Below are positions 1 to 32,487 of a stretch of DNA of 64,000 nucleotides, piece after piece. Under the pieces are notes generated by a model. It saw only the letters and a program-made list of their open reading frames with translations, ran no database searches and had not been told where the DNA came from. The DNA is from Agromyces sp. SYSU T00194 (lineage in GTDB: Bacteria > Actinomycetota > Actinomycetes > Actinomycetales > Microbacteriaceae): assembly GCF_040496035.1 (NCBI RefSeq), contig NZ_JBEPJZ010000002.1:620001-684000 (forward strand). Direction: 5' to 3'. A program made the position numbers and the translations under genes. Each line of letters starts with the position of its first letter. Positions within the stretch are counted from its first letter, which is position 1.

Positions 1-228
1 GCGGAGGCCGGGAAGCTCGCGGCGCCGGCGGATCCGGCCTCGCGTCCCGCCGTCGTCCTCGAGATCGACGGCGCCCCGGAGCGCCGCCACGGACCGCGCG
101 GCGATGATGCCGGAGCACGGAGCGGTCCCTCAGCGCGGGCGGACGGGACCAATGGCACTTCCGACGCGGTCGCGGTGGGCGTGGACTCGACAGTGGGCGC
201 CGACGCCGGTCGAGGGGAGCACGCATGA
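1..228 (+). CDS. Possible C-terminal tail of an upstream gene (5' truncated)
   Basis: An open frame enters from the left edge and ends in a TGA that overlaps the ATG of the BON-domain gene (ATGA), the same coupling used throughout this block. The visible 75 residues are low-complexity, rich in Ala, Gly, Arg and Asp, with no recognisable domain. The stretch also contains a DosR-like box near 145, so the 3' part may be promoter rather than coding sequence. The overlap is visible; the coding status is uncertain. Confidence 0.25.
   Translation, partial: AEAGKLAAPADPASRPAVVLEIDGAPERRHGPRGDDAGARSGPSARADGTNGTSDAVAVGVDSTVGADAGRGEHA
145..158. promoter_or_regulatory. DosR/DevR-like operator box
   Basis: GGGACCAATGGCAC lies about 66 bases upstream of the BON gene. 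It resembles the GGGACnWWnGnCCC core of response-regulator boxes of the DosR type, with the last half-site imperfect. A similar 14-mer occurs after the operon at 9602. The downstream genes (BON, Hsp20, Rv2030c-like) are the kind found under DosR-type control in actinobacteria. Inference from one imperfect match plus context. Confidence 0.35.
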
Positions 229-908
229 CGACCATCGCATCCACGGACAGGGCCGTCCGGACGGCGGTGCAGGAGGAGCTGGACTGGTCGCCCGACGTCG
301 ACTCCACGCGGATCGGCGTCGCGGTCGACGAGGGCGTCGTCACCGTCTCGGGCCAGGTCGACACGTACGCGGAGCGGATGGCCGCACTGCGGGCCGTGCA
401 CCGGGTCCGCGGGGTCCGCGCCGTCGTAGACGACGTCGCGGTCCAGCCGAGCGGGCGCTCGGCGGCATCGGAGCTGGACGTCGCCAGGGAGGTGGAGCAC
501 GCGCTCGACTGGGCGAGCGACGTGCCGGCGGAGGTCCGTGCGGAGATCCGCGGGCACGACGTCACGCTGACGGGCGAGGTCGACTGGGAGTTCCAGCGAC
601 TGGCCGCGAAGCGGGCGATCGAGCACCTCAGGGGTATCCGCAACGTCACCAATCGCATCACCCTGCGTGCGCGACCGTCGGCCGCCGACACGCAGGAGCA
701 CATCCGGCGCGCCCTGACCCGCAACGCCCAGCTCGACGCCGAGGGCATCGACGTCAGCGTCTCCGACTGCACGGTGACCCTGACCGGCACCGTGCAGTCG
801 TGGGCCGAGAAGCAGCAGGCGAACCACGCGGCCTGGGCATCGCCGCACGTGGCCGAGGTCATCGACCGCATCGTCGTGCACGACCAGGGAGAGGAAGGCA
901 CATCATGA
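225..908 (+). CDS. Triple BON-domain protein (OsmY-like)
   Basis: The 227-residue protein consists of three consecutive BON domains at roughly residues 9-75, 86-150 and 152-222. Each shows the pattern of a short helix, then a V.V..G.VTL.G strand pair and an alpha-helical end, for example DVTLTGEVDWEFQRLAAKRA. There is no signal peptide or membrane segment, so it is probably cytoplasmic. BON domains are thought to bind phospholipids and occur in osmotic and envelope stress proteins. A purine-rich ribosome site (GAGGGGAG) precedes the ATG. The stop overlaps the start of the Hsp20 gene, so the two are translationally coupled. Confidence 0.85.
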   Translation: MTTIASTDRAVRTAVQEELDWSPDVDSTRIGVAVDEGVVTVSGQVDTYAERMAALRAVHRVRGVRAVVDDVAVQPSGRSAASELDVAREVEHALDWASDVPAEVRAEIRGHDVTLTGEVDWEFQRLAAKRAIEHLRGIRNVTNRITLRARPSAADTQEHIRRALTRNAQLDAEGIDVSVSDCTVTLTGTVQSWAEKQQANHAAWASPHVAEVIDRIVVHDQGEEGTS

Positions 909-22213: not shown

Positions 22214-22483
22214 TCAGCGGCAGGCGTCGTCGATGAGGTGCGCCGCCGAGTCGGCCGTCACGACCGGGTGCGCGGCGAGTGCGTCCTGGGCGCAGTCGTC
22301 GGCCACCTGCGCACGACGCTCCAGGGCGTCGGCCGTGGCCCGGCTCCCTGCTGCGGGCGCCGCGGCCTCGCTGCCGGCGCCCCCGGTCGCCTCGCCGGCG
22401 CAACCGGTGAGGGCGGCGCCCGCGAGGACGAGCACGGTGGCGCCGATCGCGGCGCGGATGCGGTGGTTCGCTGTGGTGTCCAT
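22214..22483 (-). CDS. Small secreted lipoprotein paired with STAND regulator 1
   Basis: 89 residues, ATG with GGAG upstream. An N-terminal signal with lipobox LTGC (Cys28) predicts lipidation and outer-face anchoring. The mature part ends with two Cys in CAQDALAAHPVVTADS-AAHLIDDACR. The same C-terminal pattern occurs in the exported protein at 26953-27375, so the two are paralogues. It is divergent from the large SARP-STAND regulator across 132 bases carrying the direct repeats. Possible ligand or accessory of that regulator's outside propeller; inference. Confidence 0.8.
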   Translation of the reverse strand: MDTTANHRIRAAIGATVLVLAGAALTGCAGEATGGAGSEAAAPAAGSRATADALERRAQVADDCAQDALAAHPVVTADSAAHLIDDACR

Positions 22484-22521
22484 GAGGTGCTCCGTTCCCA
22501 CGAGTCCAGGCTCGCGCGCAG

Positions 22522-22563
22522 CGGTATGCGCATCGCCCGATGCCGGTATGCGTCGGGCATGCG
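22522..22563. promoter_or_regulatory. Three SARP-type direct repeats upstream of regulator 1
   Basis: CGGTATGCG at 22522 and 22544 and the variant GGGCATGCG at 22555, so start-to-start spacings are 22 and 11 bp (two turns and one turn). SARP/OmpR-type regulators such as ActII-ORF4 and DnrI bind direct heptamers with this 11/22 bp phasing near the -35. The regulator encoded downstream has exactly this kind of DNA-binding domain, which suggests autoregulation and control of the divergent lipoprotein. Confidence 0.6.
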
Positions 22564-22579
22564 CTCGGTGCGGGCACCG

Positions 22580-22609
22580 TTGACAACATGAGGAACCCTC
22601 CGAAACCAT
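22580..22609 (+). promoter_or_regulatory. Predicted leaderless promoter of STAND regulator 1
   Basis: A consensus -35 TTGACA lies at 22580 and a weak -10 AACCAT at 22604, with an 18-base gap. The expected transcript start coincides with the GTG at 22616, and no ribosome site precedes it. The second copy has the same 36-base distance from its TTGACG to its start codon. Confidence 0.55.
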
Positions 22610-22615
22610 GGCCGC

Positions 22616-25600
22616 GTGGCCATCGACGTGATCGGCCCCATGCGGACGGACGGTGCAGCGCTCCGCCCCCGCGAACGCCTCGTGCTCGCGGCGCTCGTGG
22701 TCCGGCTGGGCGAGTCGCTCCGGGTCGACGAGATCGCCGAGGCGATCTGGCCGGACGGCGAACGCCCGTCCACGTGGGTCAAGCAGGTGCAGGCGGACAT
22801 CGGACGCGTGCGCCGGGCGATCGGTGCGTCCCGCATCCGCACGAGCGGGTCGGGGTACGCGCTCGACGTCGACCCGGACGAGGTCGACGCGGTGCGGTTC
22901 GAGCGCCTCGTCGACGCCGCACGCACGCATCGCGAGTCGGGCGACCCGGAACGCGCGATCGAGGGGTACCGGCGCGCCCTCGCGCTCTGGCGCGGTGCGC
23001 CGTTCCAAGACGTCGCCGACTGGCCCGACGGCACCGTGGCCGCCGCCCGCCTGGAGCGCATCCGCCAGGAGGCCGAAGAAGGCCTCGGGCGCGCACGCCT
23101 CGACGCCGGCGAGACGTCGAGCGTGGTTCCCGACCTCGAACGACTCGTCGCCGGCGCGCCGCTGCGGGAGGCCCCGCGAGCGCTGCTCGCCACCGCGCTC
23201 TACCGCTCGGGCCGGCAGGCCGACGCGCTCGCGCTGCTGCGCGCGACGCGACGCACGCTGCTCGACGAGCTCGGCATCGAGCCCGGACGCGAGCTGGCGG
23301 AGCTCGAGCAGGCCGTGCTGCGGCAGGAGCACGCGCTCGACGGCTCGCAGGACGCGCAGACCGTGCGCGGCGACTGCCCGTACCGCGGCCTCCACGCCTA
23401 CGACGCGGACGACGCGGACGACTTCCGCGGGCGCGAGCCGGAGATCGCGACCATCGTCGACCGCCTGGACGCCGACGCGGTCGTCACCGTCACCGGACCG
23501 TCGGGCTCCGGCAAGTCGTCCATCGTGCGCGCCGGCGTCGTGCCGGCGCTCCGCCGTCGCGGGCGCACGGTCGCGGTGCTCGAACCCGGGCCCGGCTTCG
23601 AGCGGGAGCTTCGCTCCGCGGTCGAGGCGCGACGGCCGCAGGTCGTCGTCGTCGACCAGCTCGAGGAGCTCGCCGCCGGGCCCACGACGCCGGTGCCGGA
23701 ACCGATCGGCGAGCTCCTCGCGCGGCAGGCGTTCCGCGGCGGCGTCATCGTGACCGTGCGATCCGACTACCTCGACGTCGTCGCGGCCGACGCACGGCTC
23801 GGCCCCGCGCTCACCAGGTCGGTGCTCGTGGTGACCCCGCTCGGCCCCGACGCGCTCCGACGCGCGATCGAGGAGCCCGCCCTGCGCTCCGGCCTCCGCC
23901 TCGAGCAGGGGCTCGTCGAACTCGTCCTGCGCGACGCCGACGGCGCCCCGGGCGTGCTCCCCCACCTCTCCTACGCGCTCGCCGAGACCTGGCGCCGCCG
24001 CGAGGGACGCACCCTGACGGTCGACGGGTACCTCGACGCGGGCGGCATCCCCGGTGCGATCGCCCAGGCCGCCGAGCGTGCGTACGACGCCCTCGACGGG
24101 CCCGAGCGCCGGGTCTGCCACGCGATGATGCTCCGCCTGCTCGCACCGAGTTCCGACGGCACGCCCATCCGTCGTCGCATCGACCTGCACGCGCTGCGGG
24201 AGGACGCCGAGTGGTCCGGCGCGGTGGACGCCCTCGCCGACTCGCGCCTGGTCAGCGTCGAGGGCGACACCGTGGTCGTCGCCCACGAGTCGCTCGCCCG
24301 CGCGTGGCCGCGGCTGGCGGCCTGGCTGGCGGACGGGCGGGACGACCTCCGCGTGATGGCCGCGGTCAGCGCGGGAGCCGACGAGTGGGACGCCGCCGGT
24401 CGCAGCGACGACGACCTGCTGCACGGGGCCCGGCTCGAGGCGGCGTCCGAGTGGCGCGAGCGCACCGGGCCCGACCTCACCGCCCGGGAGCGGGCGTTCC
24501 TCGACCGTTCGGGCACCCGGGCGCGCGACGAGCGCGCCGCCCTGCGGGCCGACTCCCTCCGCCGGGCGCGGCAGAACCGTCGGCTGCGGCTCGCCGTGGC
24601 CGCCATCGGGGTGCTGCTGGTCGGTGCGATCGGCGCCGCCGGGCTCGCGGCCGGCAACGCCCGGCGGGCCGAGACGAACGCGGGCCTCGCCGAGGACGCA
24701 CTCGAGGACGCCCGCGTCGAGGCGATCGCGAACACCGCCCGCGCGCTTCGCGACTCGGACCGCGACCTGGCCGCACTGCTCGCCGCGGTCGCGTTCCGAC
24801 GTTGGCCGGATGATCCGCGGACGCGCTCGGCACTGCTCGCCACGCTCTCGGCGCCGGAGGGCCTCGTGCAGTCCGCGAGCCTGCCTGAGGCCGGCACCCT
24901 GCTGGGGGCGGCGGTCGTGCCCGGCACCGACCGGCTCGTCGTCGCGGGCGTCGGGCGCGACGTGGAGGTGCGCGACCTCGAGACGGGCGCACACCTCGAG
25001 TCGAGTCCGGCGTTCACGTACGCGCTGCCCGACGTGATCGCCCGCCCCGTCGTGCGCGTGAGCGCCGACGGCCGCATCGCCGCGATCGCGACGCTGAGCG
25101 ATGTGACCGCCGACGGCGTCGCAATCGACCCCGGGTGGTCGCAGCCCGGCATCAGCGCCGCGCTCGACGTCGTCGACCTCGAGACGGGCTCGCTGCTGAC
25201 CGAGCACCTCAACACCGAGTCGTGGATCACCGACCTCGCGGTCGGACCCGACGGGACCCGGGTCGCCTGGGTCGATCGCGCAACCGGCGACGTCGTCGTG
25301 CGCGACACGGCCGGCGACGAGGTGCGTCGGGTGCCGGGACTCGTCGCGGCCGGGGCATCCGACCCCGAGCATCGCGGGACGCTCGGCTTCGCCGACGCCA
25401 CCACCCTGGTCGTGGCCGGCGCCGGCGGCGCCGTGACCTGGATCGACGAGCCGACGGGGGCGGTGCTGCATCGAACGACGCTCGCCGCGGCCTCCGGTGA
25501 GCTGCGCGTGCTCCCGATCGGGAACGGCCGCGCACTGGTCACCGGCGCACGCGGCGTCGCGGCGCTCGCCCCCGACGGCACCGTCGACTGGCAGCAGCCC

Positions 25601-26875
25601 GCGACACGCGCCGCGTGTGACCCGATCGCGGCCGCACCGGCGCGCGCCAGGTACTTCTGCGGCAGCCCGGGGGGCGCCATCACCGAGTTCGACCTCGCCG
25701 ACGGCACGCCGACCGGTCGCAGCGTCGACGCGCAGGTCGGCGCCGTCCGCGACCTCTGGTGGTCGGATGCCGCCGGCGAGGTGCGGTTCCTCACCCTCGG
25801 CGAGTCGCGCGTCGGGCGCTGGCACGTCGACGGCGCCGGCGGGGCGGCGGACCTCGTCGCACGCGGTCAGGAGCTGGTCGCGGGGTTCGCGCCCGGAGGC
25901 GAGCACCTCATCGTCGGCCGGGGAACCGCCGACGGCGCGATCCACGACCTCGCCGTCTGGGACCCGATCGCCGATGCGAAGGTGCTCAGCCTGCCCACAG
26001 ACGTCGTCGAAGCCGTCTGGGCGGGCGACGGCCTCCTCCGCATGCGTGCGGCCGACGGCGCCTGGCGCCTGATGGACGTCGCCGATCGCGAGGAGCGACC
26101 GGTCTTCGGGACCGCGTCGACGCTGTTCGCACCGGTCCACGACGACGTGCAGTATCAGCTCGACCCGACCACGCGCACGGTCTGGGCACGCGATCTCGCC
26201 ACCTGGGAGCGCACCGGCCACGGCATCACGGTGGAGGGCATGCCGTCACGCGTGACCGACACCGCCGACGGGAGGACGGTGCTCGTGTCGTCCACCCTCA
26301 CCTCGGTGCCGGGCTCCGAGACGGAGTCGGCCGTGCGCACGTTCGACGTCATCTCGCTGGTCGACCGCGCGTCGGGCGAGGTGCTCGACCGGCGCATCGG
26401 CTTCGGGCCGGCCGCGGTGATCTCCGGGCCGGACGAGGTCATCGCCGCCGGCCCCGGGAGCCTGACCCGGCTCGACTTCGACCTGGAGGCCGTCGGCACC
26501 CTGCCCGCGCCACGCGGCCGTCCCGACGAGATGACCCTGACCGACGACGGCGCGATGCTCCTCGTCACCACGGAGGGACGCTCCGGCACGCTGTACGACC
26601 TCGCCGACGGCACCGTCGTCGGCGACCACCTGCGTGCCGCCGACGGCGGTGGCGCGCCGTTCGCCCTGCACCACTCCGGTGCGTGGCTGTTCATGGCGGC
26701 GGACGACGGCATCGCGCGCTGGAGCCTCGCCGCCGACGACTGGTACGCGGCGGTGTGCTCGATCCCCGGTCGCATCCTCCAGCCGGCCGAGTGGGAGACG
26801 CACCTCGGCTACCTGGGCGAGTACGTCGACCCCTGCACCGGCTGGACGCTGCCGTTCGAGAAGGAGCAGCACTGA
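22616..26875 (+). CDS. Transmembrane SARP-BTAD-STAND-propeller regulator 1
   Basis: 1419 residues, GTG start. Order: OmpR-like winged helix (1-90), BTAD helical repeats (about 95-238), nSTAND1 NTPase with Walker A GPSGSGKSS (294-302) and Walker B VVVVDQLEEL (near 341-350), one transmembrane helix (about 658-681) preceded by basic residues (cytoplasm inside), then a WD40-like beta-propeller (about 740-1410) rich in DG and D.ETG turns. It ends with a two-Cys tail (VCSIPGR and DPCTGW). Domain logic predicts an external sensor, ATP switch and DNA-binding output in one chain. A full paralogue lies at 27522. No promoter ribosome site; likely leaderless. Confidence 0.9.
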   Translation: MAIDVIGPMRTDGAALRPRERLVLAALVVRLGESLRVDEIAEAIWPDGERPSTWVKQVQADIGRVRRAIGASRIRTSGSGYALDVDPDEVDAVRFERLVDAARTHRESGDPERAIEGYRRALALWRGAPFQDVADWPDGTVAAARLERIRQEAEEGLGRARLDAGETSSVVPDLERLVAGAPLREAPRALLATALYRSGRQADALALLRATRRTLLDELGIEPGRELAELEQAVLRQEHALDGSQDAQTVRGDCPYRGLHAYDADDADDFRGREPEIATIVDRLDADAVVTVTGPSGSGKSSIVRAGVVPALRRRGRTVAVLEPGPGFERELRSAVEARRPQVVVVDQLEELAAGPTTPVPEPIGELLARQAFRGGVIVTVRSDYLDVVAADARLGPALTRSVLVVTPLGPDALRRAIEEPALRSGLRLEQGLVELVLRDADGAPGVLPHLSYALAETWRRREGRTLTVDGYLDAGGIPGAIAQAAERAYDALDGPERRVCHAMMLRLLAPSSDGTPIRRRIDLHALREDAEWSGAVDALADSRLVSVEGDTVVVAHESLARAWPRLAAWLADGRDDLRVMAAVSAGADEWDAAGRSDDDLLHGARLEAASEWRERTGPDLTARERAFLDRSGTRARDERAALRADSLRRARQNRRLRLAVAAIGVLLVGAIGAAGLAAGNARRAETNAGLAEDALEDARVEAIANTARALRDSDRDLAALLAAVAFRRWPDDPRTRSALLATLSAPEGLVQSASLPEAGTLLGAAVVPGTDRLVVAGVGRDVEVRDLETGAHLESSPAFTYALPDVIARPVVRVSADGRIAAIATLSDVTADGVAIDPGWSQPGISAALDVVDLETGSLLTEHLNTESWITDLAVGPDGTRVAWVDRATGDVVVRDTAGDEVRRVPGLVAAGASDPEHRGTLGFADATTLVVAGAGGAVTWIDEPTGAVLHRTTLAAASGELRVLPIGNGRALVTGARGVAALAPDGTVDWQQPATRAACDPIAAAPARARYFCGSPGGAITEFDLADGTPTGRSVDAQVGAVRDLWWSDAAGEVRFLTLGESRVGRWHVDGAGGAADLVARGQELVAGFAPGGEHLIVGRGTADGAIHDLAVWDPIADAKVLSLPTDVVEAVWAGDGLLRMRAADGAWRLMDVADREERPVFGTASTLFAPVHDDVQYQLDPTTRTVWARDLATWERTGHGITVEGMPSRVTDTADGRTVLVSSTLTSVPGSETESAVRTFDVISLVDRASGEVLDRRIGFGPAAVISGPDEVIAAGPGSLTRLDFDLEAVGTLPAPRGRPDEMTLTDDGAMLLVTTEGRSGTLYDLADGTVVGDHLRAADGGGAPFALHHSGAWLFMAADDGIARWSLAADDWYAAVCSIPGRILQPAEWETHLGYLGEYVDPCTGWTLPFEKEQH

Positions 26876-26893
26876 GCGATCGGCCGACGTGGG

Positions 26894-26939
26894 CGCGCGA
26901 CGGCGCCCACGTCCGCGTGGACGTGGGCGCCGTCGCGCG
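26894..26939. terminator. Perfect 21-bp bidirectional hairpin
   Basis: Arms of 21 fully complementary bases (26894-26914 and 26919-26939) with the loop GCGT. It lies between the converging ends of regulator 1 and the secreted protein gene, so it can stop both transcripts. One of the strongest hairpins in the window. Confidence 0.85.
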
Positions 26940-26952
26940 TCCGGTACCGGGG

Positions 26953-27375
26953 TCAGCTGCAGGCACCTCCGACGAGGCGCTCCGCGGTGTCCGCCGTGAA
27001 CAGCGGGCGCTGCGCCAGCGCGAGGGCCGCGCACTCGACGACGGAGCGGGCGGTCCGGCCCTCCGCCGTGGCGGCGGCGACCCGCTGCTCGATGCGGTCC
27101 GCGGGCAGGCCCGAGTACTCCTCGGCGAGCGACGCACGGTACTCGACCTCCTGGCGGATCGCCTCCGCCAGTCGATCCGCCGGCTCGAGGTGGGCCGCGG
27201 TGGCGACGCTGCCGGCGGTGGTCGCGCCGACCTGGAACGGCCCCGGGGCGAGCGGCGGCTCGACGGCCGTCGCCGGAACAGCGCAGGCGACCGTCAGGCC
27301 GGCCCCGGCTGCGAGTGCGATTCCGACCGAGGCGCGAACGATGCGACCACGGCGGCTTCCGATGCGAGTGTTCAT
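26953..27375 (-). CDS. Small exported cysteine protein paired with STAND regulator 2
   Basis: 140 residues from the ATG with GGGAG upstream. A basic N-terminus and hydrophobic core (VRASVGIALAAGAGLTVACA) form a signal peptide, possibly with Ala-Cys lipidation (LTVAC). The mature part is helical and ends CAALALAQRPLFTADTA-ERLVGGACS, matching the end of the 22214-22483 lipoprotein (both have Cys, x, A.L/AxxP, TAD.A..L, Cys at the C-terminus). It is divergent from regulator 2. The two module copies therefore include both the regulator and this small partner. Confidence 0.8.
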   Translation of the reverse strand: MNTRIGSRRGRIVRASVGIALAAGAGLTVACAVPATAVEPPLAPGPFQVGATTAGSVATAAHLEPADRLAEAIRQEVEYRASLAEEYSGLPADRIEQRVAAATAEGRTARSVVECAALALAQRPLFTADTAERLVGGACS

Positions 27376-27429
27376 GATGCTCCCTTCGGCCGGAACCGTT
27401 CCGGCGACACCTTCACGCTCGCAATCGCG

Positions 27430-27471
27430 GATATCGGTGGACGATCGGTCGATATCCGTGCGATATCCGTG
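27430..27471. promoter_or_regulatory. Three SARP-type direct repeats upstream of regulator 2
   Basis: GATATCGGTG at 27430 and GATATCCGTG at 27451 and 27462, giving 21 and 11 bp spacing. The last repeat begins 24 bp before TTGACG, nearly the same geometry as upstream of regulator 1 (25 bp), but the repeat sequence differs. This suggests each paralogue recognises its own operator. Confidence 0.6.
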
Positions 27472-27485
27472 CGGACACGGCAGCA

Positions 27486-27515
27486 TTGACGAACACCTGA
27501 CGATTTCTCGACACT
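27486..27515 (+). promoter_or_regulatory. Predicted leaderless promoter of STAND regulator 2
   Basis: TTGACG at 27486 and GACACT at 27510 (18-base gap) place the transcript start at the A of the ATG at 27522. There is no Shine-Dalgarno sequence. The distance from -35 to start codon is 36 bases, identical to regulator 1. Confidence 0.55.
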
Positions 27516-27521
27516 GCAGGC

Positions 27522-30500
27522 ATGAGCATGCGCATTCTGGGACCGATGGACACCGGCGGGCCATCGCTGAGCCCGCGGGAACGCACCATCCTGACCGCGC
27601 TCATCGTGCGGCGCGATGCGGCGGTCTCCCCCGACGAGCTCGCCGAGGCGTGCTGGGGCGACGAACCGCCTGCCACCTGGGCGCAGCAGGTGCGGAACGC
27701 GGTCGCGAAGATCCGGTCGAAGCTCGGCGCGGAGGCGGTGCGCACGGTCGGCGTCGACTACCGGCTCGGCCTGGACGCGGACGCGCTCGACGCGGTGCAG
27801 TTCGAGCAGGCGGTCGCGCAGGCGCGGCGTCAGGCGCTCCAGGGCGCGCATGACCGTGCCGCTGCCGGGTTCGAGAAGGCACTCGCGCTCTGGCGGGGAG
27901 CCCCGTTGACGGATGCAGCCGACTGGCCGCCCGCCGCGATCGAGGCCGCCCGCCTGGTCGAGGTGCGCCGGAGCGCCGAGGAGGAGCTGCTCGACGCCAG
28001 GCTCGCCGCCGGCGAGCGCGGCGCCGTGATCGCCGACGCCGAGCGTCTCGTGCGCGAGGAGCCGCTGCGCGAGCACCGCTGGGCGATCCTCGCGCTCGCG
28101 AACTATCGCGCCGACCGGCAGGCGGAGGCGATGGCGGTCATCCGCGGCGCACGCGAACGGCTGTCGAACGACCTGGGCATCGACCCGAGCCGCAGCCTCG
28201 TCGACCTCGAGACCGCGATGCTGCGCCAGGACCCGGAGCTCGAGGCGCCGGCGGTCGCGCTCGCCGAGCGGGAGGTCTCCGACGCATGCCCCTACCGAGG
28301 GCTCGCGGCGTACGGCGACGACGACCGCGCGTGGTTCTTCGGCCGCGACACCGACATCGAGGAGGTGCTCGCGCGCTGCGGCCGCCAATCGGTGGTGACG
28401 GTCGTGGGGCCGAGCGGTTCGGGCAAGTCTTCCCTCGTCCGCGCCGGCGTCGTGCCGCGCCTGCGCGACCAGAGCCGCGAGGTCGTGATCGTGACGCCGG
28501 GCGCCACCGGCGCCGAGCAGCTGCGGGCGGCGTTCTCGGGCCCGGCGGCGGTCGTCTGCATCGACCAGGCCGAGGAGTTCCGGATGCTGCCGGACGACGA
28601 GCTCCGCGACATCGGCGCGCGGTCCGCGGCATGGGTCGAGCACGGCGGATGCCTCGTGCTGGCGCTCCGCTCCGACTTCCTCGACGGCGCGACCGCCATC
28701 CCGTCGCTCGGGTCGCTCATCGGGCGCGGGCTCTACGCCCTTCCACCGCTCGGGCCGGACGGCCTGCGCGAGGCGATCACACGACCCGCCGAGGCCGCGG
28801 GGCTCGAGCTCGAGTCCGGGCTGGTCGAAGTCATCCTCCGCGACGCCGGAGACCGACCGGGCATCCTCCCTCCGCTCTCGCACGCGCTGGTCGCCACCTG
28901 GACCAGACGCGAGGGCGCGACGCTCACGGTCGACGGCTACGAGACGTCGGGCGGCATCGCCGGCGCGATCGCGCAGTCGGCGGAGCAGGTGTTCCAGGGG
29001 CTCTCCCCCGCCCGACAGGACGTGTGCCGATCGCTCATGATGCGCCTGGTCGAGCGCACCCCGGAGGGGATGACGGTGCGCCGGCGGGTGCCGCTGGCCA
29101 CGCTCAGCACGAACCCGCAGCGCCGCGCCGTCGTCGAGGGGCTCGTGCACGCGCGCCTGGTGACGATCGACGGCGACGCCGCGATCATCGCGCACGAGGC
29201 GGTGGGGACGACGTGGCCGCGCCTCGACGGCTGGCTGACCGAGGACGCCGCGAACGCACGCATCCTCCGGCAGATCGAAGTCGCCGCAGCGGCGTGGGAC
29301 ACCGCGGGGCGGCCCGCCGACGACCTGCTGCGCGGCGCCCGCCTGCACGGCGCGACCGAGTGGCGCGACGCCGCGAACCCCGACCTCACCCCGGTGGAGG
29401 CGGCGTACGTCGATGCGTCGATCGAGCGGAACGAGGCGGAACTCCGCGAGCTCGAGGCGCGATCGGTGCGCGACCGCACGCGCAACCGCTGGCTGCGCAG
29501 CGCGCTCGCCGCAGCCGCGGTGCTGCTGCTCGTCGCCGTGGTCTCCGGTGGCATCGCGGTCGTGCGCGGCTCCGAGGCATCCGCCGCCGCCGAGGACGCG
29601 ACCATCGAGGCGCTCGCCGCCACCTCGCTCGCGATCCGCGGCAGCGATCGCGACGTCGCCGCGCTGCTCGCCGTCGAGCTGCAGCGACGCTGGCCCGAGG
29701 ACGCACGAGCACGATCGGCCCTGCTCGGCAACCTGACCGGCGGCGACGGCCTGATCGCTCGCCACTGGATCGGCGAGGGGACGCGCGCATTCGGCGCCGG
29801 CGTGCCGGGCACGCGCACCGCCCTCATCGTGGAGGACGAGCTGACCGACGCGGCGACGGCGGAGGGTCCGACCGAGCCCGCGTCGGTGCGCGTGATCGAC
29901 CTCGACACCGGCGAGACGCTTCGCGAGTTCGACGTGGAGCTGCCACCCGTGAACTTCTACTTCGAGCGGGACGTGTTCGTGAGCGGCGACGGGTCCACGG
30001 CACTCATCCAGACCGGCGAGATGCGGCGGCCGAATGAGGAGAGCTGCTGCAAGAACCACTTCGTCGTCATCGATCTCGCGACCGGGACGCAGCCGTTCCC
30101 GACCGTCACCTACGACGACCGCACCGGGCAGATCCCCGTGCTCACGGAGGACGGCTCGCGCGCGTACTTCAACCACCCGATCACCGGCGACCCGGGCTGG
30201 ATCGACTTGGCGACCGGGGAGATCACCCAGCTGGTCGAGCACGACCCCGACGAGTTCGAGGCCGCCGTCCTCCGCACGAACGGCGTCGCGCTGGTCGGCG
30301 ATCGGCTCTACACCACGGGAGAGGCAGGTATCGGCATCTACGACGCGGAGACGCTCGAACCGATCGGCATGCTCGGGGACGTGCCGAGCGGATACGCCGA
30401 TCTCACCCTCGTTCCCGACGGCGACGGCGGACTCATCGCAAGCGGCGACGAGGGGGTCGTGAAGGTCGACCTCGGGACCGGCGAGGAGCTCTGGCGACGC

Positions 30501-31769
30501 CAGGCGAGCGAGATGCGCTGCGTGAACGCTGCGGTCGTCCCGGACGACCTGCTCGTCTGCATCAACGGCGTTGGACTCGTGCGGGCGTTCGACCTCGCGA
30601 CCGGCCTGCCGACCGGCGCGGAGTTGGACACGCTCTCCGACTGGAACCGCGGCGTCGACGTCGTGGGCGACGGGGGCGAGATCGTGACGTTCACCTCCCG
30701 GTCCCCGGCCGCCGCCCTCGTCTGGCGGGTCGACGGCCGGCCATCGATCACGCGGCCGATCGCGGAGGACCGGATCGTGATCGGCGGGTTCGGCATGGAC
30801 GACACGATGCTGATCACCGCGCCCGCTCCCCCGCCGCTCGTGGAGACCGTGGACGACATGCAGCTGTGGGACATCGCCGCCGACGAGGGGGTCGGGGCGC
30901 AGGTGTTCGAGATGACCTGGGTCACCGATGCAACCATCGCCGTGTCCGAGACGGGCATCGGCGACCCCGTGCTGCAGGACGTCGGCTCCGACGAGACCCG
31001 TGAGATCGACATGCCCGACTCGGCCGGCGGAGGATGGTGGATCCCGGCGGAGCGCGGCGGACCGCACGTCTTCGCGGTCACGCAGGGAGGCATGATGGTG
31101 ATCGACCCGGAGACGGGTGCGACGGGACCGCTCATCGAGACCGAGGTCAATCCACTCATCGATGCGATGGACCACGCCGAACTCGGCGACAGCGGTCGCA
31201 TGACGCTCACGTGGTGGGACGAGTCGCTGGGCCGATCCTTCACCTCGGTCTACGACATCGCGACCGGCGAGGAACTCGCGCGCGGCCTGGAGGACGACGT
31301 CGACGTGGTCGGGCTGCCGAACGGCGACGCGCTGAGCGCGAGCGCGTCACGGCTGAACCGCAGCACGGGTGACCTCGAGCCGCTGCACTCCCTGCCGAAG
31401 TCGGGTGTCGCACCGCTCCACATGGAGGTCAGTGCCGACGGCCGCACGCTGCTCTCCTCGGGGTGGGACCAGTCGATCACGCTCTACGACCTCGACGATG
31501 CGCGCCGACTCGGCGACGAGATCCAGATGCCCGGCGCCCCGAACGTCTGGTGGCCGTCGGGCTTCATCAGCCAGGACGGCACGACGCTCGCCACGAACGC
31601 CGCCGAGGGCGTCCTCCTCTGGGACATCGGGGCCGACGCCATGCGCGACGCCGCCTGCCGCATGGTCGGCCGCGACCTCACCGAGCTCGAGTGGTCGACC
31701 TACTTCGGCGACGAGCCGTACGTCGCGACCTGCACCGGCACGGGCCCGGCGGTCGAGGCATCCGACTGA
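27522..31769 (+). CDS. Transmembrane SARP-BTAD-STAND-propeller regulator 2
   Basis: 1415 residues, paralogue of the 22616 gene along its whole length. Winged helix 1-90, BTAD to about 235, nSTAND1 Walker A GPSGSGKSSLVRAG near residue 295 and acidic Walker B (VVCIDQAEEF), transmembrane helix near 657-680 (SALAAAAVLLLVAVVSGGIA), and an extracytoplasmic propeller with repeated LDTGE/DLATG-type turns. It ends with a Cys pair (ACRMVGRDLTELEW and ATCTG). Helix position matches copy 1, but the propeller has diverged most, suggesting different ligands. It ends 7 bases from the small anchored protein gene on the other strand. Confidence 0.9.
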   Translation: MSMRILGPMDTGGPSLSPRERTILTALIVRRDAAVSPDELAEACWGDEPPATWAQQVRNAVAKIRSKLGAEAVRTVGVDYRLGLDADALDAVQFEQAVAQARRQALQGAHDRAAAGFEKALALWRGAPLTDAADWPPAAIEAARLVEVRRSAEEELLDARLAAGERGAVIADAERLVREEPLREHRWAILALANYRADRQAEAMAVIRGARERLSNDLGIDPSRSLVDLETAMLRQDPELEAPAVALAEREVSDACPYRGLAAYGDDDRAWFFGRDTDIEEVLARCGRQSVVTVVGPSGSGKSSLVRAGVVPRLRDQSREVVIVTPGATGAEQLRAAFSGPAAVVCIDQAEEFRMLPDDELRDIGARSAAWVEHGGCLVLALRSDFLDGATAIPSLGSLIGRGLYALPPLGPDGLREAITRPAEAAGLELESGLVEVILRDAGDRPGILPPLSHALVATWTRREGATLTVDGYETSGGIAGAIAQSAEQVFQGLSPARQDVCRSLMMRLVERTPEGMTVRRRVPLATLSTNPQRRAVVEGLVHARLVTIDGDAAIIAHEAVGTTWPRLDGWLTEDAANARILRQIEVAAAAWDTAGRPADDLLRGARLHGATEWRDAANPDLTPVEAAYVDASIERNEAELRELEARSVRDRTRNRWLRSALAAAAVLLLVAVVSGGIAVVRGSEASAAAEDATIEALAATSLAIRGSDRDVAALLAVELQRRWPEDARARSALLGNLTGGDGLIARHWIGEGTRAFGAGVPGTRTALIVEDELTDAATAEGPTEPASVRVIDLDTGETLREFDVELPPVNFYFERDVFVSGDGSTALIQTGEMRRPNEESCCKNHFVVIDLATGTQPFPTVTYDDRTGQIPVLTEDGSRAYFNHPITGDPGWIDLATGEITQLVEHDPDEFEAAVLRTNGVALVGDRLYTTGEAGIGIYDAETLEPIGMLGDVPSGYADLTLVPDGDGGLIASGDEGVVKVDLGTGEELWRRQASEMRCVNAAVVPDDLLVCINGVGLVRAFDLATGLPTGAELDTLSDWNRGVDVVGDGGEIVTFTSRSPAAALVWRVDGRPSITRPIAEDRIVIGGFGMDDTMLITAPAPPPLVETVDDMQLWDIAADEGVGAQVFEMTWVTDATIAVSETGIGDPVLQDVGSDETREIDMPDSAGGGWWIPAERGGPHVFAVTQGGMMVIDPETGATGPLIETEVNPLIDAMDHAELGDSGRMTLTWWDESLGRSFTSVYDIATGEELARGLEDDVDVVGLPNGDALSASASRLNRSTGDLEPLHSLPKSGVAPLHMEVSADGRTLLSSGWDQSITLYDLDDARRLGDEIQMPGAPNVWWPSGFISQDGTTLATNAAEGVLLWDIGADAMRDAACRMVGRDLTELEWSTYFGDEPYVATCTGTGPAVEASD

Positions 31770-31776
31770 CCCGTCG

Positions 31777-32148
31777 TCACTCGCCCGGCAGCCCGTCGCC
31801 GCCCTCGACCGGAACGCACTCGATCGAGCGCGAGGCCGTCCTGACCTCGTAGTACTCCCGACAGCGCTGCATCCACTCGTGCACGGTCACCCACGTGCCG
31901 TCGTCCCGTTCGGACGTCGTGTCGCCCGGGGTCACCGCCCGTCCGATCGGTGACGCGGGCTCGGGCGCGACGTCCGGCCCGGGCGCCTCGACGAGGTCGC
32001 CTCCCACGACCAGCCCGACCCCGCACAGCACCGCGACCGCCGCGAGCATCACCCATCCGAACCGCCGTTCGCCCGCGCCGCGGACGGAGGGTGCGACTGA
32101 CGGCCGTATCGGTGCGGACGTGCGGACCACCCGTGGTTCGTCTGCCAT
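31777..32148 (-). CDS. Small membrane-anchored cysteine protein A
   Basis: 123 residues, ATG with GAGGGG upstream. One N-terminal helix (WVMLAAVAVLCGVGLVVGG) anchors an outside domain whose C-terminus reads EWMQRCREYYEVRTASRSIE-CVPVEG. The next gene encodes a relative with CCREHYSYSTGTTTIECVPI, so these are tandem paralogues with a conserved CREYY...IECVP motif and probably a disulfide. Function unknown. It lies tail-to-tail with regulator 2 and may belong to its module. Confidence 0.75.
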   Translation of the reverse strand: MADEPRVVRTSAPIRPSVAPSVRGAGERRFGWVMLAAVAVLCGVGLVVGGDLVEAPGPDVAPEPASPIGRAVTPGDTTSERDDGTWVTVHEWMQRCREYYEVRTASRSIECVPVEGGDGLPGE

Positions 32149-32157
32149 GAGGACCCC

Positions 32158-32487
32158 TCAGTCGGACGCGAGGAACGCCTCCGTGATCGGCACGCACTCG
32201 ATCGTCGTCGTGCCGGTCGAATAGGAGTAGTGCTCGCGGCAGCACATGAGGGAGACGTCGGTCCCGTCCTCCGCGCCCGCCGCCTGCTCCGGCTCCGACC
32301 CGCCGCTCGTGAAGATCCCGACGGGTGCGATCTCCGCGTCGGGCGGCGGGTCGTGCGCTCCCGCTCCTCCCACCAGGGTCGGGCCCAGCACGATCGCGCT
32401 GCCGCACAGGAGCACCCCACCGGCGAGCACCGCCCAGCCGGCCCGCCGATTCGCGTCCTCACGAACCCCGGCCGCATGGCGGTCCAT
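32158..32487 (-). CDS. Small membrane-anchored cysteine protein B
   Basis: 109 residues. A transmembrane helix (AVLAGGVLLCGSAIVLGPTL) is followed by an acidic linker and the Cys motif LMCCREHYSYSTGTTTIECV. It is paralogous to the next gene downstream (31777-32148), which starts 9 bases after its stop, so the two form an operon. The ATG at 32487 has only a GGGG close by; no better start was found. No known family. Confidence 0.72.
   Translation of the reverse strand: MDRHAAGVREDANRRAGWAVLAGGVLLCGSAIVLGPTLVGGAGAHDPPPDAEIAPVGIFTSGGSEPEQAAGAEDGTDVSLMCCREHYSYSTGTTTIECVPITEAFLASD

Follow-up and report, generated by a model that had tools for sequence, protein, structure and literature searches.

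Predicted transmembrane SARP-STAND regulators paired with divergent exported partners under a candidate three-heptamer operator in Agromyces

SARPs are familiar chiefly as proteins that switch on antibiotic clusters. In a stretch of 64,000 nucleotides from Agromyces sp. SYSU T00194 (NZ_JBEPJZ010000002.1, positions 620,001 to 684,000, forward strand; hereafter the window), two neighbouring modules each pair a large SARP-type regulator, predicted to span the membrane, with a divergent gene for a small exported protein, and three heptamer repeats lie between the two genes. Sequence comparisons across the genus establish the gene pairing, its near-constant spacing, the operator geometry, purifying selection on the partner and the predicted topology. 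We see an even chance that each of the modules works as a self-contained one-component circuit that crosses the membrane and drives both itself and its exported partner, with the partner feeding back on it. The SARP and STAND parts are known; as far as our searches reach, what is new is a circuit that spans the membrane, has an operator to itself and comes with an exported, often repeat-bearing partner. The features of the two modules, with their winged helix-turn-helix (wHTH) and nucleoside triphosphatase (NTPase) domains, are as follows.

22214..22483, minus strand: partner 1 (P0006, 89 residues), predicted lipoprotein with the canonical lipobox LTGC and two Cys near the C-terminus
22523..22562, plus strand: candidate SARP operator of module 1, direct repeats GGTATGC (22523), GGTATGC (22545) and GGCATGC (22556)
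22580..22585, plus strand: TTGACA, −35-like element of regulator 1, found by eye
22616..26875, plus strand: regulator 1 (P0001, 1419 residues), SARP wHTH 15-82, BTAD 90-235, nSTAND1 NTPase 255-598, predicted transmembrane helix 656-682, then a beta-rich region with a Cys pair
26953..27375, minus strand: partner 2 (P0007, 140 residues; stop codon at 26953-26955), predicted lipoprotein with the lipobox-like TVAC and two Cys near the C-terminus
27430..27469, plus strand: candidate SARP operator of module 2, direct repeats GATATCGG (27430), GATATCCG (27451) and GATATCCG (27462)
27486..27490, plus strand: TTGAC, −35-like element of regulator 2, found by eye
27522..31769, plus strand: regulator 2 (P0002, 1415 residues), SARP wHTH 15-75, BTAD 89-233, nSTAND1 NTPase 257-599, predicted transmembrane helix 656-686, then a beta-rich region with a Cys pair

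Pairing and operator geometry across the genus

The C-terminal 776 residues of P0001, used as a query, found matches in 24 of 60 Agromyces genomes. Thirty-two regions were taken along with the window (regions and genomes carry L and G numbers below), giving 43 regulator open reading frames (ORFs) at the N-terminal threshold, of which three partial duplicates were dropped to leave 40 in 24 genomes. Regulator starts were set by alignment, and a partner was counted when a divergent ORF passing a permissive lipobox test lay within 60-200 bp. Such a lipoprotein ORF was found beside 34 of the 40 regulators and beside 2 of 129 other genes of at least 200 residues in the same regions. The first-pass annotation of this DNA had proposed a constant divergent exported partner and held that its absence from most genomes would speak against the idea; the genus does not show such an absence, and the regulators lacking one in cis are six (L041:3997, L045, L052:4149, L054:9283, L069 and L070). 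Start-to-start distances in the 34 pairs cluster tightly, with 24 at 112-115 bp, one at 93 bp, three at 132-138 bp and six at 143-147 bp. Of the 36 genus genomes with no match, 12 were looked at in their ilvC region, and none of the 12 had a partner match or a three-box site there, three of these stretches stopping short of serA.

The gap between the divergent genes holds a GGTATnn-like heptamer in three direct repeats. Taking the best of 170 free spacings, the repeats were set 22 + 11 bp apart in 22 of the 40 modules and 21 + 11 bp apart in 14 (36 of 40 together); the exceptions are L069, L070, L049 and L054:9283, the last two keeping two words 11 bp apart (marginally so in L054:9283). For the 22 modules of the 22 + 11 form, module 1 of the window among them, none of 200 dinucleotide shuffles reached the observed score. 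That test was fixed at 22 + 11 and is unsuited to the 21 + 11 modules, including module 2 of the window, for which a local pattern search gave a single hit to the two proximal words in the window and none in 100 shuffles. The distance from the 3′ box end to the regulator start is 50-55 bp in 34 of 36 modules and 41-42 bp in L044 and L046. The spacing of the boxes stays constant while their words differ between regulator groups (GGTATGG, GGTATGC, GGTATCC, GGTACTC and GGTATGA, with GATATCCG in the P0002 group). Published SARP sites are likewise heptamers with an 11-bp period, and PimR uses three of them upstream of the −35 element (excerpts of PMC5930380 and PMC10972967). We regard the three-heptamer repeats as a candidate SARP operator common to the regulator and partner genes.

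A blind search with the pattern GGTAT-N16/17-GGTAT-N6-GGTAT over the 60 genus genomes, to which the window's own operators are variants with no exact match, returned 32 sites in 16 genomes, while the reversed control returned 0. Twenty-five sites precede 24 regulators (one site is doubled in G048), and a cis partner accompanies 22 of these regulators. The remaining seven sites lie 59-60 bp before orphan genes for small exported proteins in the same arrays, two of them lipoprotein-like and five with an ordinary signal peptide as judged by eye, so that 30 of the 32 three-box sites front an exported-protein gene. Five of the seven orphans share a type of motif (AERR, RYVxEL, DDLSP or DPRG) with cis partners. 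For two of the four box-bearing regulators with no cis partner, L041 (G019) and L052:4149 (G012), the array holds an orphan with similar box words. In the genus the operator turned up nowhere but at regulators and exported-protein genes, which makes the exported protein the likely product of the circuit. In the window's own genome, two-box sites with up to 2 mismatches numbered nine for the module-1 word (reversed control 3) and six for the module-2 word (reversed control 0), own sites included. No third word (at most 1 mismatch, at a distance of 21 or 22 bp) was found at these sites beyond the two modules, and for this reason we claim no wider regulon.

At least one of serA and ilvC, both identified by eye, is present in 24 of 30 regulator loci (the window not counted, and with some overlap), so most arrays sit between the two genes; neither was seen at L044, L045, L046, L048, L069 or L070. 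The ilvC-serA gap is 1.0-9.9 kb in the nine of 12 regulator-less genomes with both genes in reach and 11.5 kb in the window. As a side observation, the interval varies from 1.0 to more than 11 kb within the genus and looks like a cargo hotspot, and one genome with no match in the genus search (G016) holds a stretch related to P0002 (L164:1563-2294).

Regulators: domains, topology and relationship

The first-pass annotation had described two paralogues of about 1.4 thousand residues in which a SARP wHTH, BTAD and nSTAND1 are followed by one transmembrane helix near residues 657-681, and this description holds well. Both ORFs are present and their products are 37% identical. Pfam matches follow the same order in each, with E values in P0001 and P0002, respectively, of 9.1e-90 and 1.2e-96 for nSTAND1 and 4.9e-36 and 1.3e-29 for BTAD. 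The wHTH (Trans_reg_C) exceeds the 26.2-bit cut-off in P0002 (31.9 bits, E 1.5e-7) and falls below it in P0001 (22.7 bits, E 1.0e-4). An N-terminal OmpR-type wHTH followed by BTAD is the mark of the SARP family, with the wHTH over the cut-off in P0002 alone, and an nSTAND1 domain with the P-loop GPSGSGKSS places both among STAND proteins. Among solved chains, EmbR (4.2e-27) and AfsR (4.4e-23) match the N-terminal 640 residues of P0002.

Each regulator of the window has a single hydrophobic segment, at 656-682 in P0001 and 656-686 in P0002. A strong segment starting at 650-666 was predicted in 38 of 39 regulators, a count that leaves out L065 and whose lone exception is the broken L058:11791. 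No second hydrophobic window rises above threshold in 36 of the 38, while L055:3634 and L056 have an extra one at 360-364. The charge bias at the segment is positive-inside in 38 of 38 regulators, with mean positive flanking charges of 6.3 inside and 1.9 outside over the 39 rows. A DNA-binding domain and a transmembrane segment are thus predicted in one protein, and the proposal of a one-protein architecture from membrane to DNA gains support from these predictions.

The C-terminal half had been called an outside beta-propeller ending in a Cys pair. The Cys pair is present in both regulators and the region is beta-rich, but the propeller itself is weak by sequence and by model. Pfam matched WD40 in P0002 alone (E 0.04), besides weak profile matches to WD40 chains. 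An AlphaFold2 (AF2) model of P0002 residues 640-1415, built from 4 sequences, has low confidence (predicted local distance difference test 59, predicted template modelling score 0.40) and shows N-terminal helices and then mostly beta structure. Foldseek with this low-confidence model ranked WD40 proteins at the top with template modelling scores (TM-scores) of about 0.25, and Apaf-1 was among the matches (E about 1e-14, TM-score 0.26-0.27). The region is probably WD40-like. It is also the fastest-evolving part of the regulator, with a median identity of 31% compared to 49-57% elsewhere in 29 modules.

With P0001 as query, the two regulators were the sole matches at E ≤ 0.001 in their own 3.69-Mb genome. 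The nearest named relatives of P0002 come from an uncultured Agromyces metagenome-assembled genome and Agromyces kandeliae. In the tree P0002 joins its own orthologues first and L069 and L070 next, and P0001 forms a long branch whose placement is unsure. A recent duplication of the two modules is ruled out by this tree, so the earlier label of a duplicated module is right in that the modules are paralogous, but their divergence is old. L069 and L070 belong to a SARP-STAND-transmembrane subfamily of 1119-1121 residues with no serA or ilvC nearby, no three boxes and no divergent lipoprotein. Four shortened regulator ORFs (L042:10699-13491, L055:3634-5928, L058:11791-14121 and L068:4197-7247) are probably broken, and their partner genes and operators remain.

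The span first assigned to the system, 22214..32487, covers both modules but adds, from 31777 to 32487, two small genes outside the core. These accessory genes encode small paralogues and are convergent with regulator 2:

31777-32148, minus strand: P0008, one transmembrane segment, Cys in the tail
32158-32487, minus strand: P0005, one transmembrane segment, Cys in the tail

Single relatives of P0005 and P0008 lie beside P0002 orthologues in L064/L098 (probably one genome) and in L065, and none was found in L063 or L066.

Exported partners and relatives beyond the genus

Partner length ranges from 47 to 284 residues across modules, and in nine of nine pairs the ratio of nonsynonymous to synonymous substitution rates was 0.26-0.57. 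Such values indicate purifying selection and support the small partner ORFs as real genes. The partners had been described as small secreted proteins; they are exported, but as predicted lipoproteins for the most part and not freely secreted. The lipobox is less usual in P0007 (TVAC), and its orthologues have VSAC, ITAC, ITAC and FSAC. Over their C-termini P0006 and P0007 have 15 of 33 residues in common (E 1e-6) and end in Cys...TAD.A..L...AC. This ending was proposed as shared and is real in the window's pair, but as a family mark it fails, since 6 of the 34 partners carry it, namely the window pair and four P0002-group partners; an exported divergent ORF is thus the rule and a Cys-ended one is not. 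Matches to P0007 were found in seven of the 60 genus genomes, its own included and one of them weak. Besides the six partners with the Cys ending there is one more P0007-like gene, in G011, which is not on the contig of its regulator. Typical partners scanned against Pfam gave no family above cut-off, the search for P0007 relatives in viral contigs confirmed none, and comparison with PHROGs gave weak, short matches only.

Internal repeats exceeded residue shuffles (at most 2 of 200) in 20 of the 34 partners, with DxAERR, ADRYVxEL and NDNDPRGHH among the repeated motifs, and the L060 partner holds three near-identical copies of HRMLVRESADRYVDELIERANLDST. In four rows (L047, L048, L052:9776 and L054:4529) the mature part was trimmed a few residues early and was used so in this test and in the Mantel test described below.

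A profile of the STAND-transmembrane-linker region (A1) had matches in 9 of 299 family genomes, spread over 7 of 85 genera with Agromyces counted, and in 62 of 394 class genomes, spread over 21 of 137 genera. Five box-bearing regulators, belonging to four other genera, lie in four of the six family regions taken (in L102 the third word was read by eye); L105 gave no match, and L104 has a SARP match whose start could not be set. A lipoprotein partner is present in L100 (113 bp) and beside L103:4734 (151 bp). In L101 and beside L103:13058 a protein of 68 residues with no signal peptide takes the partner's place, and in L102 probably its 70-residue relative. The small proteins at L101 and L102 are alike (MNYDTFVA...), and PVAH occurs at the end in L101, L102 and L103:13058.

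STAND-transmembrane proteins with no SARP match are common, and in 20 class regions 10 of 21 STAND proteins had a SARP match. Five of these ten have three boxes (L133, L134, L135 and two in L136); boxes were absent from L137, L145 and L150, and L138 and L142 were excluded for misplaced starts. The partners are two lipoproteins in L136, an exported 102-residue protein in L135 and, at 194 bp in L133, a secreted protein that is weakly cupin-like below the Pfam cut-off. In L134 the operator-linked lipoprotein (1-426, minus strand), which we take to resemble CapA, is open-ended, the contig ending inside it. Judging from these relatives, the predicted membrane-spanning SARP form with this candidate operator is not confined to one family. 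Separately, the box-less SARP-STAND-transmembrane genes in L145 and L150 are divergent, at about 230 bp, from a secreted 192-residue protein, which in L145 matches peptidase inhibitor family I36.

The proposed circuit, its rivals and known systems

In the circuit that we propose, the cytoplasmic SARP domain would bind the three heptamers and activate both divergent genes, its own and the partner's. As the switch, the nSTAND1 NTPase would let regulators assemble side by side on the operator and set cooperativity. A single transmembrane helix would connect the NTPase to the outside, probably WD40-like domain, which would decide. The exported partner, often with short repeated motifs, would act on this domain as a self-made ligand or a tethered co-sensor, and the circuit may then report on what it makes itself, on what a neighbour makes or on conditions at the envelope that change the partner. 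DNA binding, activation and switching are what we infer from the SARP and STAND families, and partner binding to the outside domain we only infer. Partner feedback probably ranks ahead of pure output, with the constant cis pairing, the repeated motifs and the trans copies in its favour.

A bolder form of the proposal, which we hold tentatively and at less than even weight, is a new class of actinobacterial peptide signalling. The partners would be exported as precursors that, similar to alpha-factor, contain a short motif several times over, and they would be read outside by membrane-spanning SARP-STAND-propeller receptors that are themselves the transcription factors. An operator word private to each receptor-ligand pair would then make several orthogonal channels in the arrays. 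Judged by sequence, a small exported gene does stand beside the regulator and under its operator, as in Rgg/SHP systems.

Several results weigh against the proposed circuit. Internal repeats in the window's own two partners do not exceed those of shuffled sequences (166 and 71 of 200 shuffles reached as much), the G013 and G019 orphans carry an LRQ repeat absent from all 34 cis partners, and the neighbour of L045 is glyoxalase-like by eye. In other genera of the family, the regulators of L101 and L103:13058 (GGTACTC boxes), and probably L102, face a divergent protein of 68-70 residues with no signal peptide. The class-wide pattern search of the 394 genomes gave five sites, one per genome, against four sites in three genomes for the reversed control, a number that alone is no enrichment; four of the five are SARP modules, and the fifth genome, G480, holds two control sites. 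A test for co-evolution of the partner with the propeller specifically was negative: across 29 modules (four broken regulators, L065 and the six partner-less modules being omitted), the divergence of the partner showed no tie to that of the outside domain over and above its tie to the other parts of the regulator (partial Mantel r −0.05; 1417 of 2000 permutations were as high). The outside fold itself comes from a model of low confidence, and the partner is replaceable, as in L133 and L134, as would be expected of an output more than of a dedicated ligand.

It is possible, though on balance unlikely, that the exported protein is an output only and that the outside domain senses a cell-wall fragment, a metabolite or a competitor molecule, to which the regulator would answer by placing a small protein, often with repeats, on the cell surface. 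The exported-protein genes behind nearly all three-box sites would suit an output, as would the Mantel result and the replaceable partner, which besides the weakly cupin-like protein of L133 and the CapA-like one of L134 includes mature lipoproteins of 256 and 231 residues in L044 and L046. However, the constant one-to-one cis pairing and the short motifs that recur both inside a partner and among the orphans are suggestive of a ligand precursor, and the typical partners scanned match no Pfam family above cut-off.

An improbable alternative makes the partner an anti-activator that holds the outside domain off, is removed on a signal by cleavage, titration or sequestration and is made again by the regulator as negative feedback. 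One operator common to both genes would suit this arrangement, and membrane anchoring would hold the partner near its receptor, but L045 and L054:9283 bear boxes with no cis partner, and no orphan with a similar box was seen for them (the L054:9283 array has a GGTATGG orphan only).

More doubtful again is a conflict or surveillance module, in which the STAND-propeller would sense an invader and the exported protein would be the defence product. The domain nSTAND1 is named in conflict systems (in the available part of PMC8195603), and the variable arrays of 2-4 regulators, broken copies and fast evolution have that character. However, PADLOC gave weak matches confined to the P-loop (best 8e-4), neither the fusion nor the typical partner has an effector domain, and the operator geometry is that of ordinary SARP regulation. 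It is very improbable that the regulator is simply cytoplasmic and AfsR-like, with an unrelated lipoprotein gene as its neighbour, a reading that would account for the similarity of the SARP part to AfsR and EmbR but not for the positive-inside segment in 38 of 39 regulators, the excess of pairing over control genes or the orphans with the same operator.

Returning to the proposed self-driving circuit, its parts resemble several known systems. The large SARPs (AfsR, EmbR and PimR/SARP-LAL) likewise combine wHTH and BTAD with an NTPase switch domain and use the 11-bp-period heptamer repeats noted above. Here nSTAND1 replaces NB-ARC or LAL, a transmembrane helix and an outside domain are predicted, the operator is common with an exported partner and spaced 22/21 + 11 rather than 11 + 11, and the locus is mostly ilvC-serA with no biosynthetic cluster noted. 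ToxR/ToxS and CadC share the OmpR-type wHTH inside, the one transmembrane helix and the outside sensory domain; ToxR also has two Cys in that domain, and ToxS is a small membrane-bound co-activator (excerpts of PMC7496328 and PMC10269533). The likeness is architectural. A SARP/BTAD part and a STAND NTPase stand here between the wHTH and the transmembrane helix. The partner gene is divergent under a common operator and hypervariable. By contrast, toxS is co-transcribed with toxR.

In Rgg/SHP the regulator and small peptide genes are also divergent, and the regulator activates the peptide gene in positive feedback (PMC13361665, in part). RRNPP receptors are cytoplasmic and their peptide is re-imported, whereas the receptor here would read outside and the partner is a precursor of 47-284 residues, mostly a predicted lipoprotein, with a putative peptide role. 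STAND proteins of the Apaf-1 type with tandem WD40 propellers similarly have the STAND NTPase followed by a long WD40-like region (here by the low-confidence model), unlike which the effector here is DNA-binding and a transmembrane helix separates STAND from the repeats. No description of a membrane-spanning SARP with an exported partner was found in the literature searched, the scope of which mostly excluded subscription papers and preprints. The words 'transmembrane', 'membrane' and 'WD40' do not occur in the available portion of a paper on SARP classes (PMC10972967), nor 'SARP' or 'BTAD' in that of a survey of transmembrane transcription regulators (PMC10269533), nor 'AfsR', 'BTAD' or 'nSTAND' in PMC7159879.

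A SARP that spans the membrane and has its own exported partner would give a direct route from outside to DNA through a STAND switch. The regularity of the operator, by which a short pattern finds the genus modules blind, makes box specificity, the orthogonality of paralogues and the role of the repeat motifs testable.

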